Assembly: GCA_937868555.1 (NCBI GenBank)
Contig: CALMNI010000150.1
Coordinates: forward strand, 1 to 13,908
Length of the DNA stretch: 13,908 bases
Reading direction: 5' to 3'
Source of the DNA: an uncultured bacterium
GTDB lineage: Bacteria > Patescibacteriota > Patescibacteriia > Patescibacteriales > Patescibacteriaceae
The notes under the pieces were generated by a model that saw nothing but the letters and a program-made list of their open reading frames with translations, made no database searches and was not told where the DNA came from. Both the position numbers and the translations under genes were made by a program. This document shows positions 4,501 through 13,497 of this stretch, piece by piece. Positions within the stretch are counted from its first letter, which is position 1. The number at the start of each line of letters is the position of its first letter.

Positions 4501-5604
4501 TTACTTATAAGGAAATATGTCCCCCAGCGTTCCCGAATAATAAAATTCATAGGCGAGCGACCCAAAAAAATATTTTTTATTTTCAATGAAGAGAGTTGAC
4601 CCGCCGATTTCTGGATTTTGCTTGGGCTTAGATTTATCAAAACCTATATTAAAAAGAGTGGCAACCACTTCCGGGCGATAATATAAGGGGTACCCGGCTT
4701 TTTCCCATTGCGTTTCAATTTGTTTAATAATCAAGGCACCGTACAGATACGAATAATAATGATTTTGCTCATTAGTTAATCGTTGATAGCGGATTTTTGC
4801 TCTATCACTATTTTCTGGAAAATCAAGAAGCGTTTCTTTCTCTTTGCCAAGATAAAAAGGAGAACTTTCATCTTTGAGATGCCATTCAGTTTGAATGGCC
4901 ATTTTTTCTTTGATAGACATTACTCCCCAGGCCATTTTATTGGCGTTAGCCAGAATTTTCAAAGGTTTAAAAAATTTTTCAAATAATTCTCGTTGCGTAT
5001 AATAAAGTCGTAATTGTTCAACAATAATCGCAGAAACCAAGAGGCGGGGTTGGATGCCGGCCGCCGCTGCCGCTTTATCTATTGAATCCTTATCTTTAAT
5101 AAGGCCTTGTTTTATAATATTCCATGGTTCGCCGTTTTCCCAAGCGTATATGCTTTGACCCCGAGGAGAGACTAGGCGTTCTTGCAGTATTTTTAAAGAT
5201 GCGGCCCCCGGATTTTTACCACAGTTTTCAAGGCCATTCATAAATTCTTGCGGATTTGAAGTATGAAGGCTGAAGGCTAAAAGCATGCGTCGTAGCAAGT
5301 TTTCAGAATGTGTTGCTTGAAAAGCTTGGAAAATAGCGCCGGCGCTGCGTTGATTAGCATCGGCCGCTAAAGAAATCTTACACCAATTAGCTTTTTCATT
5401 TATTCCGTAAAGCGAATTATTTTTTGGTAGGGTATTTGTAATCTCACGTTCTTTTTGTAATTCCTCAGTATAGAGAGCTGAATTCGGATCAATACTGCCG
5501 GGCACATTTAACCAATTGAAACGGATAGCTAAAAATACACCTCCAAAAATTATTAGGATAATGGCTACTAGTATTAGAAAAAGATAGAGGATCTTTTTGC
5601 GCAT
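4501..5604 (-). CDS. membrane-anchored lytic-transglycosylase-like protein
   Basis: About 367 residues from ATG 5604. A Lys/Arg start (MRKK) and one long hydrophobic segment (5-28) anchor it, with the rest outside the cytoplasm. The C-terminal half has the order of features of goose-type/Slt-like lysozyme folds. AAAAAGIQPRLLVSAIIVEQLR (178-199) puts Glu196 where the catalytic Glu would lie. AWGVMSIKEKMA (225-236) matches the usual G-x-x-Q-I-K-type segment. YLYGALIIKQIETQWEKAG (286-304) and RPEVVATLFNIGFDKSKP (310-327) match the late helices with an AAYNAG-like turn. DUF1402 is a possible family. Peptidoglycan cleavage in the cell wall is therefore inferred, not proven. Cys75 and Cys128 could pair. 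A GTG at 5622 would add six residues (MVLYIH), but the promoter position makes ATG 5604 better. Confidence 0.65.
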   Translation of the reverse strand: MRKKILYLFLILVAIILIIFGGVFLAIRFNWLNVPGSIDPNSALYTEELQKEREITNTLPKNNSLYGINEKANWCKISLAADANQRSAGAIFQAFQATHSENLLRRMLLAFSLHTSNPQEFMNGLENCGKNPGAASLKILQERLVSPRGQSIYAWENGEPWNIIKQGLIKDKDSIDKAAAAAGIQPRLLVSAIIVEQLRLYYTQRELFEKFFKPLKILANANKMAWGVMSIKEKMAIQTEWHLKDESSPFYLGKEKETLLDFPENSDRAKIRYQRLTNEQNHYYSYLYGALIIKQIETQWEKAGYPLYYRPEVVATLFNIGFDKSKPKQNPEIGGSTLFIENKKYFFGSLAYEFYYSGTLGDIFPYK

Positions 5605-5609
5605 ATGGA

Positions 5610-5637
5610 TATATAGTACCACGGCCTAAATACTCAA
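5610..5637 (-). promoter_or_regulatory. predicted leaderless promoter of the transglycosylase-like gene
   Basis: On the minus strand TTGAGT (5632-5637) and TATATA (5610-5615) are 16 bases apart. The predicted start site (5603-5604) coincides with the ATG at 5604, suggesting a leaderless mRNA. Confidence 0.55.
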
Positions 5638-5652
5638 GCCATGGGAAATAAA

Positions 5653-5674
5653 AAAGGAAGCCTTCGCTTCCTTT
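5653..5674 (-). terminator. rho-independent terminator of the frameshifted gene
   Basis: A perfect 9-bp stem (5653-5661 with 5666-5674) has a CTTC/GAAG-type tetraloop. On the minus strand a T-rich tail follows. It lies about 20 bases past the stop at 5695. Confidence 0.85.
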
Positions 5675-5694
5675 ATGGAAAATAACCTAGTTAA

Positions 5695-6176
5695 TTAACC
5701 GACTGCTTCGGTTAAAATATTTTGTTCTGTTTCGATTTTTACATCAATAAGTATTCTGACGGTTGGCAAATTTCTTGCTAACTCTTCTTTCATTTCGTGA
5801 GCCGTATTTTTTATGGCGTTTTCAATTTCATGTATTTTTTGAGTATCTATCAGGTTATTTTTGCCGAGATTGAATGTTTCTTGGTCAATATATCTTTCAA
5901 ATATTATTTCCTTGCCTTCGAGGGGCTGAGCCGCAGCGTGGATGTAGTGTTGGTAATAACAAGGGGTATTCCCAATAATATTTTGATAGTTATGACCGTC
6001 ATCGTGAATAATTGAGGAAATGTGAGAGCGATGAGATGAGATTATAATTTCTTCGCATTTTTTTTCTTTGACAATTTTGATAAACTCATCAATACTGTCA
6101 GTTTCCTGCGGAAAAAAATTTTTTATTTCCGTAAGAGTTTTTTACAAGAATTTATAAATGATTTAAACCATTTCAT
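5695..6176 (-). pseudogene. unrecognised gene with a -1 frame disruption (or recoded gene)
   Basis: ATG at 6176 lies nine bases after a good SD (AGGAG, 6186-6190). It opens a frame reading MKWFKSFINSCKKLLRK and stopping at TAA 6123-6125. A second frame is open from 6141 to the stop at 5695 (about 148 codons) but has no ATG, GTG or TTG near its beginning. Adding one A to the A6 run (6136-6141) joins both into about 160 residues beginning MKWFKSFINSCKKTLTEIKN. The body contains CEEIIISSHRSHISSIIHDD, then KEIIFERYIDQETFNLGKNN, and a basic/acidic helix ENAIKNTAHEMKEEL before a final strand VRILIDVKIETE. No signal peptide is present and I recognise no family. Promoter, SD and terminator are all intact and no further stops occur. 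An assembly indel, recent decay, or -1 slippage on the A-run are all possible. Confidence 0.65.
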
Positions 6177-6185
6177 AAATTAAAG

Positions 6186-6190
6186 CTCCT
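6186..6190 (-). promoter_or_regulatory. Shine-Dalgarno site of the frameshifted gene
   Basis: AGGAG on the minus strand lies nine bases before ATG 6176. It is one of the few clear SD sites in the window and fixes the start in the first of the two frames. Confidence 0.75.
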
Positions 6191-6237
6191 TTCGCCTTTG
6201 GCTATTAAAAACAAAATTTTTAAAGACTTCTACGCAG

Positions 6238-6266
6238 AATATACTAATAATTGCTTAAAATGTCAA
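6238..6266 (-). promoter_or_regulatory. consensus promoter of the frameshifted gene
   Basis: A perfect TTGACA (6261-6266) and TATATT (6238-6243) on the minus strand are exactly 17 bases apart. They predict a start near 6231 and a leader of about 55 bases containing the SD. Confidence 0.75.
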
Positions 6267-6309
6267 TATATCTGAAAAACCGTAATAGAAAGAGTTATCC
6301 GCCGTACTC

Positions 6310-6315
6310 TATAAT
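6310..6315 (+). promoter_or_regulatory. -10 box of a leaderless GH3 mRNA
   Basis: A perfect TATAAT ends five bases before the ATG at 6321, placing the transcription start at or next to the A of the start codon. No good -35 is seen (AGAAAG at the expected place), so expression may be weak or need an activator. Confidence 0.55.
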
Positions 6316-6320
6316 AGAGT

Positions 6321-8914: not shown

Positions 8915-9319
8915 TTAGCCTTGGAAATTAATAGAGAAATTGTACATGCCCATGCTGCAGAGCGCTTTTAAGGTCGTACCAGCGTTTTGGGCCGGGAGTT
9001 CAATATCAGTTGTGCCGGTGGCTGGTAAATTTTTACTATAACCCAGGGCGGGAATTCTCAATGAGGAGGAGCAGTCAAAAGTGGCATTAGTTTTAATGCG
9101 AAGAATGGTAGCTTGCCCGGCTTTAGCTATTGTTGCGCGAGGAGTATAGCCGCCCTTAGCGTTAATTTCTATGATCTGTTTTCCTTCAGAAGTTGAAACA
9201 TTGGCTCCAAGACTTTGAACAGAGTCATAGCGGGTAACCTTGGGAGTTTTTTTATTAAAAACAAGACCAATGCCTAGGAGGGCGATAATAGCTATTGAGA
9301 TAATGATAATTTTTTTCAT
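8915..9319 (-). CDS. cupredoxin-like copper-binding protein, membrane-anchored
   Basis: A 134-residue protein. A KK start and hydrophobic segment (4-20) anchor or export it. The rest fits a small cupredoxin-like beta barrel (Cupredoxin_1 type). It shows the strand IEINAKGGYTPRATIAKAGQATILRI (50-75), then TFDCSSSLRIPALGYSKNLPATGTTDIEL (80-108), and the C-terminal LCSMGMYNFSINF (120-132). The likely copper ligands are Cys83 and the CxMGM motif, Cys121, Met123 and Met125. The classical C-terminal His ligand of blue copper proteins is absent, which suggests Cu(I) chelation or transfer rather than electron transfer; this is inference. It is the last gene of the copper operon, 12 bases after the HMA/DsbD_2-like gene, and also has its own predicted leaderless promoter. 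In some bacteria similar domains are fused to the membrane protein encoded just upstream. Confidence 0.8.
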   Translation of the reverse strand: MKKIIIISIAIIALLGIGLVFNKKTPKVTRYDSVQSLGANVSTSEGKQIIEINAKGGYTPRATIAKAGQATILRIKTNATFDCSSSLRIPALGYSKNLPATGTTDIELPAQNAGTTLKALCSMGMYNFSINFQG

Positions 9320-9325
9320 AGTTTC

Positions 9326-9355
9326 ATTATACTAGATATTAAGCAGTGGTGGCAA
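9326..9355 (-). promoter_or_regulatory. internal leaderless promoter for the cupredoxin-like gene
   Basis: On the minus strand TTGCCA (9350-9355) and a perfect TATAAT (9326-9331) are 18 bases apart. The predicted start falls at the ATG at 9319. The promoter lies in the last codons of the upstream gene and would allow expression without CsoR control. Confidence 0.5.
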
Positions 9356-10360
9356 AAATCCCATTACAGCCAAGGCATTATAGATATTATAAAGGCCGAA
9401 TACAATCACTATCAAACCGGCGGTTTTAAAGAAAATACTTGCATTGAGGCCTTTAGTAAGACTGAAGGTGCTAAAGCTGACAATAGCCAAAACGGGCAGG
9501 GTGCCGAGGGCGAAGAAAAGCATAGTGAGTCCGCCTTGTAAAAAACTGCCGGTTGAGAGAGCGTATACTTGCATAGATTGCGTAAAACCGCAGGGCAGAA
9601 AAAATGTAATGATACCAATAAGTGCCGGCGTTATGCTCGTATGAAATTTGCTAACCCCTAAAAGATTGCGCGAAAGAAATTTCGGCATAGAAAGTTGTAA
9701 GCGCTTGGCCCATGGAAAGACATCTAACAAATTGAGTCCTAGTACGAACAGCACTAAGCCGATAAGTAAGCTTAAGATAAACATCCCAAGAGCATTTAAA
9801 GAAAATGAAGCCCCGAGGGCGCCAATAGCTCCGCCTAAAACAAAGAACGATATGATGCGACCAAGATGGAATAAAATTTGTGGCCGAAAAGATCTGTTGG
9901 ATTGAGCAAAGGTAGCGGACATTGATAAAACAAGGCCGCCAACGATGGCCATGCACGATGAGAGGGAGGCAATGATGCCGATGGTAAAAGCAGTAGCGTA
10001 GCTGACATTGCTACCGCTAATAAGGTTAACAATGCCAAGCTTTTGTAACAGAACAAATAGCGCCATAAAAAGAAGGGCGAGAGGCAGGGCAATTTTGAAA
10101 TCTTTCCATTGGGGTTTCACCTTTTCTTTATTCATTGAAAGCGCGTAGCCATGTTTTTCTAAAACGCCCGATAGTTGCTTAACTAATAGCTCTGGAGAGG
10201 TATTAGCAAACTCCCCGGTAACAGTAACTGACGAATCGGCTAGGTTAGATGTTGCCGCCGTTACTCCCGGCTGTTCAAGTAATTCCCTTTCGGTTAAAAG
10301 GACACAGGCTTGGCAATGCATGCCTGCGACATGAAAGGTATGCGAAGTTTGTTTTTTCAT
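9332..10360 (-). CDS. HMA-domain fusion to DsbD_2/SafE-like membrane protein
   Basis: A 342-residue protein. Residues 5-75 form a heavy-metal-associated ferredoxin-like domain with the Cu(I)-binding GMHCQAC at 13-19. After a linker, six or seven membrane segments follow (about 89-107, 123-147, 163-185, 190-212, 243-264, 274-296 and 312-333). They carry SSCMAIVGG (134-142) and FLPCGFTQSMQ (254-264), the paired motifs of the DsbD_2/CcdA-like group often labelled sulfite exporter TauE/SafE or UreH-like. Cys136 and Cys257 match the positions of the two redox cysteines in DsbD and CcdA membrane domains. The protein probably sits in the cytoplasmic membrane and handles copper or thiol redox on behalf of copper sites outside. 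The start overlaps the copA stop by 4 bases (ATGA), so translational coupling is likely. Transport of sulfite is not implied. Confidence 0.85.
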   Translation of the reverse strand: MKKQTSHTFHVAGMHCQACVLLTERELLEQPGVTAATSNLADSSVTVTGEFANTSPELLVKQLSGVLEKHGYALSMNKEKVKPQWKDFKIALPLALLFMALFVLLQKLGIVNLISGSNVSYATAFTIGIIASLSSCMAIVGGLVLSMSATFAQSNRSFRPQILFHLGRIISFFVLGGAIGALGASFSLNALGMFILSLLIGLVLFVLGLNLLDVFPWAKRLQLSMPKFLSRNLLGVSKFHTSITPALIGIITFFLPCGFTQSMQVYALSTGSFLQGGLTMLFFALGTLPVLAIVSFSTFSLTKGLNASIFFKTAGLIVIVFGLYNIYNALAVMGFLPPLLNI

Positions 10361-12600
10361 AAAGAGATAGTTTTAAGCCGCAATGAGTTAAGGACTACGG
10401 AAACGCTACTACCGGCCATTGCTAAACCAGCAAAGACCGGGTTAAGGATGATCCCCCAGAAAGGGTAGAGTAACCCGGCCGCGATTGGTAGGCCGACTAA
10501 ATTATAAATAAAGGCCCAAAATAAATTTTGTTTGACCGTTCGCAGCGTTGTGCGGGCTAAGATTACCGCCTGAGACAGCTTCGCAATATCTCCGTGCATT
10601 AATGTAATGCCGGCCGATTCAATGGCAATATCAGTGCCTGTGGCCATCGCAATGCCAACATCAGCCTGCGTTAAAGCGGGCGCGTCATTAATGCCATCTC
10701 CCGCCATGGCTACTCTCTTGCCTTGTTGTTGCAATTCCTTGATTTTGTCGGCTTTTTCAGCTGGCAAGACTTCGGCAATAACGCTGTCAATATTCACTTG
10801 CTTGGCTATATATTCTGCCGCCGCGCGATTATCTCCCGTTAACATTATTACGATGAGGCCATGGGCATGAAGGGCTGCCACCGCTTCTTTGGCCCCGTCT
10901 TTCACCGTGTCGCTGAGTGCAATTATACCAGTTAGCTTCTCCTTCATTTCAAGCACAACAACTGTTTTGCCTTCCTGCTGCAGTTTATGTACTTTGGGCT
11001 CTAATGATTCTTCCGGAGTCGGTCTACGGATTAAGATTTTTTTTCCATCGACCATTCCGGTTACACCTATACCTTCTAAAGCGCTGAACTGTTCCGTATT
11101 GTATAATGTAGCTTTTTGTTCATGCGCCTTTGCTACAATTGCATTAGCTAGAGGATGTTCGGAAAGTTTTTCAATACTAGCAGCATATTGAATAATAGTC
11201 GATGAATCCCAATCGGGTTGTGTTGATATAATATCTGTTACTGTCGGTACGCCTTTTGTAATAGTACCGGTTTTGTCAAGGATAACTGTATCAATCTTGC
11301 TTAATTTTTCCAGAGATTCAGCGTTCTTAATAAGAATTCCATACTGCGCGCCTTTACCCACGCCGACAATGATCGCGGTCGGAGTGGCAAGCCCCAACGC
11401 GCAGGGGCAAGCGATAACCAAGACGCCGACAAAGGACAAAATGGCGTACGAGAAAGCCAAGGTAAATCCAAGTACGGCGGCTCCCCAGGTTAGCCATAAT
11501 ATCAAGCTTAAGCTGGCAATTCCAAGCACGATAGGTACGAATACCGCTGAAATTCTATCGGCTAAAGCCTGAATTGGCGCCTTGGAACCTTGTGCGTCTT
11601 CAACCATTTTAATGATTCGAGCCAAGACGGTTTGAGATCCAATTTGCGTGGCAGTGCATTGAATACTGCCTTGCTTGTTCAATGTCCCGCCAATAACAGT
11701 ATCGCCTATTTTCTTATCAACCGGAAGCGATTCACCCGTTATCATTGATTCGTCAATGGCAGATTCGCCCCTGATGATTTTACCGTCAACCGGAATTTTT
11801 GTTCCGGGTTTAACAATCATAATATCGCCGATTGCAACATCTTCAATTGTTACTTCAATTTCAGCACCATCGCGAATAATGAGCGCTGTTTTGGCCTGAA
11901 GGCCTAATAATTTTTGAATAACAGTGCCTGTACGTTGCTTTGAACGGGCTTCCAAATACTTCCCTAAAACGACAAAGCCGATAACTACGATTGTGACATC
12001 AAAATAGGTATACTCAGGTAAACGAAGTAATATTCGAATTTGAGGAGTTAATGTGATTATTGCACTGTAGGCGTAGGCTACTAAGGTGCCGATACCTATC
12101 AGCGTATCCATGTTGGCCACACGAAAGCGCATAAATTTTACTACAGCATCCAAGAAAGGCCTGCCTATCCAAAACAACACTACCGTTGCTAGTATCATGG
12201 CAAGGTTATTAAACCACATCATCGGCAAGGGCAGATTCGGGAAGCCGACTATAGTTCTACTCGCGATGTCCCACATCATAACTACAAATACCATTAATGC
12301 TATTGGTACTGCGAACTGCGCCTTAGCTTTCATGCTTTCTAGCTCCTGAACCTGTGAATGAGCTGCGGGCATATGCTCATCATTAGTATTTTCAGAAACA
12401 AAAGTATAGCCAAGCTTTTCTATTTCATTGTTCATTTTTTCAATCGATACTTTGGAGGCATCAAAATTAATCGTTGCTTTTTCTGTGGCAAAGTTAACAT
12501 CAATTCCGTCAACGCCTTCCAGCTTACTGACTTTTTTTGAAATAATGGTTGCGCAACTGGCACAGTGCATTCCTTTAACGGGAAGTATTTTTTGGGTCAT
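10357..12600 (-). CDS. copA: Cu(I)-exporting P1B-type ATPase
   Basis: A 747-residue protein, full length for a one-HMA copper ATPase. The N-terminal HMA domain (3-68) has GMHCASC at 10-16. A linker (71-88) carrying Met77, His76 and His81 leads to the first membrane segments. The ATPase motifs are complete: TGES 288-291 (actuator), CPC 398-400 in segment 6, the phosphorylated Asp442 in DKTGT, SEHP 480-483 (nucleotide domain), TGD 588-590 and GDGIND 634-639. The last two segments contain YN (699-700) and MAGSS (728-732), the extra Cu(I) ligands typical of the P1B-1 copper class rather than Zn/Cd pumps. It drives Cu(I) out of the cytoplasm at the cost of ATP. It starts 8 bases after the DUF305 stop without an SD and overlaps the next gene by 4 bases, so it belongs to the csoR-controlled operon. 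Confidence 0.97.
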   Translation of the reverse strand: MTQKILPVKGMHCASCATIISKKVSKLEGVDGIDVNFATEKATINFDASKVSIEKMNNEIEKLGYTFVSENTNDEHMPAAHSQVQELESMKAKAQFAVPIALMVFVVMMWDIASRTIVGFPNLPLPMMWFNNLAMILATVVLFWIGRPFLDAVVKFMRFRVANMDTLIGIGTLVAYAYSAIITLTPQIRILLRLPEYTYFDVTIVVIGFVVLGKYLEARSKQRTGTVIQKLLGLQAKTALIIRDGAEIEVTIEDVAIGDIMIVKPGTKIPVDGKIIRGESAIDESMITGESLPVDKKIGDTVIGGTLNKQGSIQCTATQIGSQTVLARIIKMVEDAQGSKAPIQALADRISAVFVPIVLGIASLSLILWLTWGAAVLGFTLAFSYAILSFVGVLVIACPCALGLATPTAIIVGVGKGAQYGILIKNAESLEKLSKIDTVILDKTGTITKGVPTVTDIISTQPDWDSSTIIQYAASIEKLSEHPLANAIVAKAHEQKATLYNTEQFSALEGIGVTGMVDGKKILIRRPTPEESLEPKVHKLQQEGKTVVVLEMKEKLTGIIALSDTVKDGAKEAVAALHAHGLIVIMLTGDNRAAAEYIAKQVNIDSVIAEVLPAEKADKIKELQQQGKRVAMAGDGINDAPALTQADVGIAMATGTDIAIESAGITLMHGDIAKLSQAVILARTTLRTVKQNLFWAFIYNLVGLPIAAGLLYPFWGIILNPVFAGLAMAGSSVSVVLNSLRLKTISL

Positions 12601-12608
12601 ATGAGAAT

Positions 12609-13172
12609 TTAAAGCTTATACCACTCCGTACGCCAATCTTTAAAAATCTTTACGGTAGAAGATAAGAAAGATTCAACCGCGTCGGCGTTATTTAATATCT
12701 CCGTACGACTGGATTTTGTTTTTATTTCTTTTGTCATCGCTAAGCCAAGCTCATGATGAGCTATCAAGGCGTTTAAAAACCTGAGGTCAAATTTTTCGTC
12801 ATATGATCCTAAGCGCGTTACAATGGGATCTTGAACTTTTCTCATATCGCCGTACCAATCTTTTTTCCATGCATAGAGCTCGTAAATTGCTGTCGGCTCA
12901 TCCGCTAAAATTTTAGCTGCTAAATCTTTAATTTCCGATCGTTGAGATGTCGTTTGAGCCTGTTCGGCTAAGAGCATGGCAGCGCGGTGATGGGAAATCA
13001 TGGCATTAATATAGCGTTGATCAAGCCAGCGATCAGGGCTGCCTAAATCCATAGTATTCTTGTCGTACATGCTCAAACGGTATTCGGGTGTTAGGTAATA
13101 GCCTAAGCCGAAACCGATTATCCCCGTTACGATCATGCACGCAATTGCCAATGGCGCGTATATTTTAATCAT
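12609..13172 (-). CDS. DUF305 protein, membrane-anchored, likely copper-binding
   Basis: A 187-residue protein with one N-terminal hydrophobic segment (6-27), so most of it lies outside the membrane. It matches DUF305, a four-helix, ferritin-like family. RYINAMISHHRAAMLLAEQA (53-72) carries His61-His62 and several Met, and a second copy of the pattern, RFLNALIAHHELGLAMTKEI (131-150), carries His139-His140. The two halves look like an internal duplication. DUF305 proteins are often found beside copper genes, and cyanobacterial CopM, which contains the domain, binds copper outside the cytoplasm. Here the His pairs and Met residues are likely Cu(I)/Cu(II) ligands, by inference. It is the second gene of the operon, 27 bases behind csoR and 8 bases ahead of copA. 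No SD is visible before ATG 13172. Confidence 0.85.
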   Translation of the reverse strand: MIKIYAPLAIACMIVTGIIGFGLGYYLTPEYRLSMYDKNTMDLGSPDRWLDQRYINAMISHHRAAMLLAEQAQTTSQRSEIKDLAAKILADEPTAIYELYAWKKDWYGDMRKVQDPIVTRLGSYDEKFDLRFLNALIAHHELGLAMTKEIKTKSSRTEILNNADAVESFLSSTVKIFKDWRTEWYKL

Positions 13173-13199
13173 ATTAATTAGTAATATTTAATTATTGTA

Positions 13200-13463
13200 T
13201 TATTTTCGCTTAAGCCTATAGACTTTTAAAATTTCGGCTTTGGCTTTTTCGCCTTTGCCTTTGGTAATTTGTCCGACAACGCAGCTGCTTAAATGCCGCT
13301 CCATCAAGGCATCCTCGACTCCGGAAAGAGCCTGTTTAACGGCAGAGGTTTGCGTAATGACGTCGATGCAGTAGGCATCGTTAGTAATCATTTCCTGCAG
13401 ACCCCGAACTTGGCCCTCAATAATTTTAAGCCGCTTAATGAGCGGGTTGTTTTGTTTAGTCAT
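13200..13463 (-). CDS. csoR: CsoR-family copper-sensing repressor
   Basis: An 87-residue all-helical regulator, the usual length for CsoR/RcnR. Family hallmarks are IKRLKIIEGQVRGLQEMI (9-26) and AYCIDVITQTSAVKQAL (30-46). The Cu(I) ligand set is Cys32, His57 and Cys61, equivalent to Cys36, His61 and Cys65 of Mycobacterium tuberculosis CsoR. Arg and Lys residues of helix 1 are the expected DNA contacts. Family members bind DNA as apo tetramers and release it when Cu(I) binds. The frame continues to an ATG at 13484, but that codon lies inside the operator and before the predicted transcription start, so ATG 13463 is the true start. The mRNA would be leaderless or have 2-4 leader bases. The gene is first in the copper operon and should regulate itself. 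Confidence 0.95.
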   Translation of the reverse strand: MTKQNNPLIKRLKIIEGQVRGLQEMITNDAYCIDVITQTSAVKQALSGVEDALMERHLSSCVVGQITKGKGEKAKAEILKVYRLKRK

Positions 13464-13470
13464 ATATAAA

Positions 13471-13497
13471 ACAGTATACCCCATGGGGGTATACTGT
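13471..13497. promoter_or_regulatory. probable CsoR operator (perfect inverted repeat)
   Basis: Two perfect 12-base arms, ACAGTATACCCC (13471-13482) and GGGGTATACTGT (13486-13497), are separated by 3 bases. The TATACCCC/GGGGTATA core is of the type bound by CsoR/RcnR-family repressors. It overlaps both promoter boxes, so bound repressor would block polymerase. Confidence 0.85.

Follow-up and report, generated by a model that had tools for sequence, protein, structure and literature searches.

The stretch of DNA analysed here (the window) is the entire contig 150, 13,908 bases in length, from a draft genome of 202 contigs (1.0 Mb, 94% completeness). On its minus strand, a single gene unit running from a promoter-like site to a terminator-like hairpin is interrupted by one break of the reading frame at a run of six A's. 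The features of this unit, in window coordinates, are:

6238..6266, minus strand: sigma-70-like promoter TTGACA-17-TATATT, a consensus match only, agreeing at 11 of 12 consensus positions
6186..6190, minus strand: Shine-Dalgarno (SD) motif AGGAG, nine bases ahead of ATG 6176
6126..6176, minus strand: 17-codon ATG frame, the 5' part of the gene, followed by the stop TAA at 6125-6123
6138..6143, minus strand: A6 run where the frame shifts
6101..6137, minus strand: AT-rich hairpin just 3' of the A6 run, folding at -8.9 kcal/mol
5695..6141, minus strand: long frame of 148 codons, the rest of the gene with its stop; coding-like, and 100% identical to the database protein P0001
5653..5674, minus strand: intrinsic-terminator-like hairpin of 9 pairs, beginning 20 bases past the stop

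A sequence-only reading of this DNA had described most of the unit correctly, including the position of the SD motif, the 17-codon length of the ATG 6176 frame, and the terminator 20 bases beyond the end of the gene, for which the 9-pair hairpin at 5674-5653 is the match. Other details required adjustment. The promoter, which had been called perfect, is present at 6266-6238 with 11 rather than 12 matching positions, and ranks first among 8 promoter-like sites between 5400 and 6500, a region in which shuffled sequences hold 5.1 such sites on average. The A6 run had been placed at 6136-6141, two bases away from its actual position. The long frame (codons 6141-5698, stop TAA 5697-5695), which had been said to have no standard start, lacks one for its first 116 codons, and the earliest ATG, GTG or TTG is codon 117. 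The zero frame at the junction reads TGT AAA AAA CTC with a T as the base before the run, and a -1 slip on AAA leads into the long frame as had been proposed. Searches of the window against Rfam returned no match, and a tRNA search of the window found none. At a GC content of 0.324, the split gene is the most AT-rich of the 15 genes in the window (0.342-0.441 for the others; 0.429 for the 137,057 bases of the genome that could be read), a composition that would fit a gene that is young or was acquired.

The neighbouring gene at 4504-5604 on the minus strand encodes a 367-residue protein (P0003) with 754 database matches; among the 120 of these that were listed, some are named Patescibacteria or Falkowbacteria. 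Together with the genome size, such names indicate that the organism probably belongs to the Patescibacteria. No match to P0003 was obtained in 12 further genomes drawn from the same genus, family or order, and in a phylum sample just 5 of 285 other genomes have one. Elsewhere in the window, the minus-strand genes from 8915 to 13484 all run in one direction and, judged by their sequences, likely form a copper-handling cluster. It comprises a CsoR/RicR-like repressor that at 77 bits stays under its curated cut-off, a DUF305 protein, a copper P-type ATPase whose score exceeds the cut-off, a membrane protein in which a metal domain weakly resembles CopZ, and a cupredoxin-like protein.

Runs of six A's are not rare in the window, where AAAAAA has 80 overlapping matches over both strands against 68.4 (sd 10.7) in shuffled sequences. 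The frame break itself is truly present in the sequence and beyond chance, because both frames were confirmed and the coding score of the long frame stands at the top of its class. This frame carries a coding signal of 32.2 bits over 148 codons, 23.3 bits of which fall in the 116 codons ahead of any standard start, the highest pre-start value among 121 coding-like segments in the 137,057 readable bases (the window's 13,908 included). Its codon statistics are normal for the genome and it contains no second stop. A gene caller applied to the 13,908-base contig would probably miss the split gene.

The same readable sample, drawn from 20 of the 202 contigs, was surveyed for other breaks and contains 446 homopolymer runs of at least 6 (301 of exactly 6 and 145 longer). 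Three start-less segments exceeded 15 bits before their first start, and the split gene is the sole one that is not antisense to another gene. The other two are:

L030 6136-6444, minus strand: start-less coding segment, antisense to a 134-aa ORF
window 9299-9538, plus strand: start-less coding segment, antisense mainly to the gene at 9332-10360

Weaker candidates, at 5 to 7 bits, are L015, L035 and L032 (which begin at a contig end) and two segments that do not reach a contig end:

L024 67-504: 28 codons before a start
L033 10-498: 10 codons before a start

The survey would miss breaks close to gene ends, and a few smaller breaks are possible. With no other strong, non-antisense break among the 446 runs, the idea of a generally indel-ridden assembly is not supported.

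The state of the gene in other sequences was determined by searching 5.8 billion proteins with a word-based method, which finds only relatives that have short exact words in common with the query. Of the 33 candidates for the 148-aa frame, two passed E ≤ 0.001, P0001 and P0002, and a profile built from both returned the same two proteins alone at E ≤ 1 among 297 candidates. P0001 is a single-frame protein of 160 aa with 100% identity across all 148 residues of the long frame; P0002 is a single-frame protein of 159 aa that is 55-58% identical. Both begin at the ATG of the 17-codon frame, whose residues 1-13 are residues 1-13 of each protein, and both read MKWFKSFINSCKKTLTE across the junction. 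Because they read through the junction, the gene is normally one frame starting at ATG 6176, and for both relatives their shared start rules out initiation at a non-standard codon within the long frame. The earlier question of whether homologues are one frame is answered affirmatively for the two found. The longest contig encoding P0001 measures 92,450 bases, and P0001 is therefore not from the 13,908-base contig. It should be noted that P0001 and P0002 were compared as proteins, and that the longer A run of P0001 is deduced from its protein. P0001 could in principle stem from a gene caller that bridges frames, although its sequence shows no X at the junction and its contig is not the window's. 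Between P0001 and P0002, residues 1-25, which span the junction, are identical at 25 of 25 positions and the remainder at 68 of 135 columns; an orphan protein would not usually combine identical first residues with a half-identical rest.

On the sequences recovered, the gene appears to be a near-orphan with two members. No match above the curated cut-offs of Pfam or NCBIfam was obtained for the split-gene protein, and PADLOC gave none at all. The nearest family, Imm63 (PF15599), reached 15.1 bits with the 148-aa frame and 14.9 bits with P0001 against a cut-off of 26.7, and P0002 did not match it; similarly, phrog_4051, a family of unknown function, matched P0001 (E 0.0006) and not P0002. A sequence search of the PDB found nothing at E 10. 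The AlphaFold model of P0001 has a mean pLDDT of 41, and a fold search of the PDB with this model gave none at E 0.001, in a setting where the low pLDDT makes matches meaningless. Residues 1-19 of P0001 are calculated to be a basic, amphipathic helix with a hydrophobic moment of 0.555, a value that 0.18% of 5000 shuffles attain, and the intact product may bind a membrane or a partner through it. The distribution is equally narrow: the split gene matched only the window's own genome in 61 genomes, in 13 genomes at E 0.001 and in 111 genomes of the order (0 of 110 others), and contig scans for relatives returned nothing. A match to G015 at E 0.08, from a search at E up to 10, was taken for chance. 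The DNA from 4501 to 6320 matched its own genome alone among 21 genomes. A mobile origin was considered and set aside, as tblastn with P0001 found no match in phages or plasmids and none was confirmed in viral contigs.

These observations make it very probable that the break is a one-base indel in an ordinary one-frame near-orphan gene, and not programmed frameshifting. Since both homologues are single-frame from the same ATG, the A6 form appears to be a one-base-shorter variant of the normal gene. The gene would be an ordinary lineage-restricted one, with a promoter, an SD motif, about 160 codons in one frame and a terminator, and the copy in the 13,908-base contig would carry an A run one base shorter, at which translation would end after 17 codons. 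The A runs would differ by a simple indel in the homopolymer, with a consensus error and a real strain-level allele as the two options. A real, non-switching strain-level deletion through replication slippage stands at roughly even chances, while an error of the assembly consensus at the run is a serious though somewhat less likely possibility. The neighbour P0003 is found on 10 contigs (2 member sequences) and P0001 on 1 contig. If the P0003 contigs extend over the split gene, then most lack a callable intact copy, and the difference in counts leans to a real, perhaps common A6 allele and against a one-off contig error; the counts could also be explained by contig ends and mixed members.

The causes put forward by the sequence-only reading were an assembly indel, a recent pseudogene, phase variation, and transcriptional or translational slippage. 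An indel, as an error or a recent allele, agrees with both one-frame homologues (2 of 2). Slippage is unnecessary given that these homologues start at the same ATG, and nothing specific was found in its favor. Programmed -1 ribosomal frameshifting at TGT AAA AAA CTC, aided by the hairpin, would yield a 17-aa peptide together with the 160-aa protein. Full pairing would be preserved if a single P-site slip on the second AAA led into the long frame, and the core stem of the 37-nt hairpin (-8.9 kcal/mol; z -3.92 for this hand-picked stretch, equalled by 0 of 200 shuffles) begins 6 nt past the run. However, the split ORF is not kept in either of the two homologues, and, with a T ahead of the run and a tandem slip that would re-pair the first tRNA-Lys with TAA, there is no X-XXY-YYZ slippery heptamer in the zero frame at the junction. 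Over 66 nt the z of the hairpin region is only -1.80. When, as a control, the 37 nt 3' of every usable A6+ run in the readable sample were folded (428 runs, both strands), this site ranked 12 by z and 39 by energy, ahead of most without being exceptional. The hairpin is probably a by-product of the coding sequence, and this form of recoding is very improbable. Even less probable is transcriptional slippage, in which an A added in the run would rescue the frame as in tssM1 of Citrobacter rodentium. Insertions during transcription do fall mostly in A or T runs in E. coli and Buchnera and become exponentially more frequent with run length, but that study reports no transcription error that restores a reading frame (PMC5574713). 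The run here has 6 A's, not a long A/T run of the tssM1 kind with its 11 (PMC4256274), and the homologues do not need such a rescue.

Homopolymer phase variation, in which short (off) and long (on) alleles of the A run would coexist and interconvert to switch the 160-aa protein, has the advantage that the same protein is recorded once broken (the window) and once intact (P0001), and that P0003 on 10 contigs against intact P0001 on 1 looks as if the off form were common. The broken and intact forms sit on different contigs, and the number of contigs does not give the number of alleles. Phase-variable tracts are usually longer than six, the 137-kb sample has no other strong break among its 446 runs (301 of six, 145 above that), and one literature search on homopolymer phase variation in Patescibacteria found no papers. 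Phase variation is thus very unlikely. Its more elaborate version is less likely still: the run as a slow on/off switch, with most cells carrying A6 and making a 17-residue peptide only and a minority making the 160-residue protein. The peptide is strongly amphipathic, with a charge of +6 and a hydrophobic moment of 0.724 (reached by 0.06% of 5000 shuffles), and the N-terminus of the 160-residue protein carries nearly the same helix.

Compared with known systems, the locus resembles recoding sites in part and homopolymer indels throughout. In dnaX and IS elements, -1 frameshifting combines a slippery heptamer, an A-rich site and a downstream hairpin as family features. The A-rich site and a hairpin a few bases downstream are present here as well, but the canonical heptamer is missing, the hairpin ranks high without being exceptional in this genome and the split is not kept in the two homologues. 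As in tssM1, an A run lies shortly 5' of a premature stop and an added A would join the frames, but that gene has 11 A's and demonstrated products, whereas the present one has 6 A's and one-frame homologues (PMC4256274). The frame break is of an ordinary kind and serves mainly as a caution: where an otherwise clean unit from promoter to terminator is broken once in a fragmented draft genome, an uncut copy should be sought before recoding is invoked. Homopolymer indels are known to break genes, as assembly errors or as recent pseudogenes, and the split gene shares with them a one-base difference in an A run, the lack of any other lesion and, as proteins with the same start, intact one-frame copies elsewhere (P0001 and P0002).
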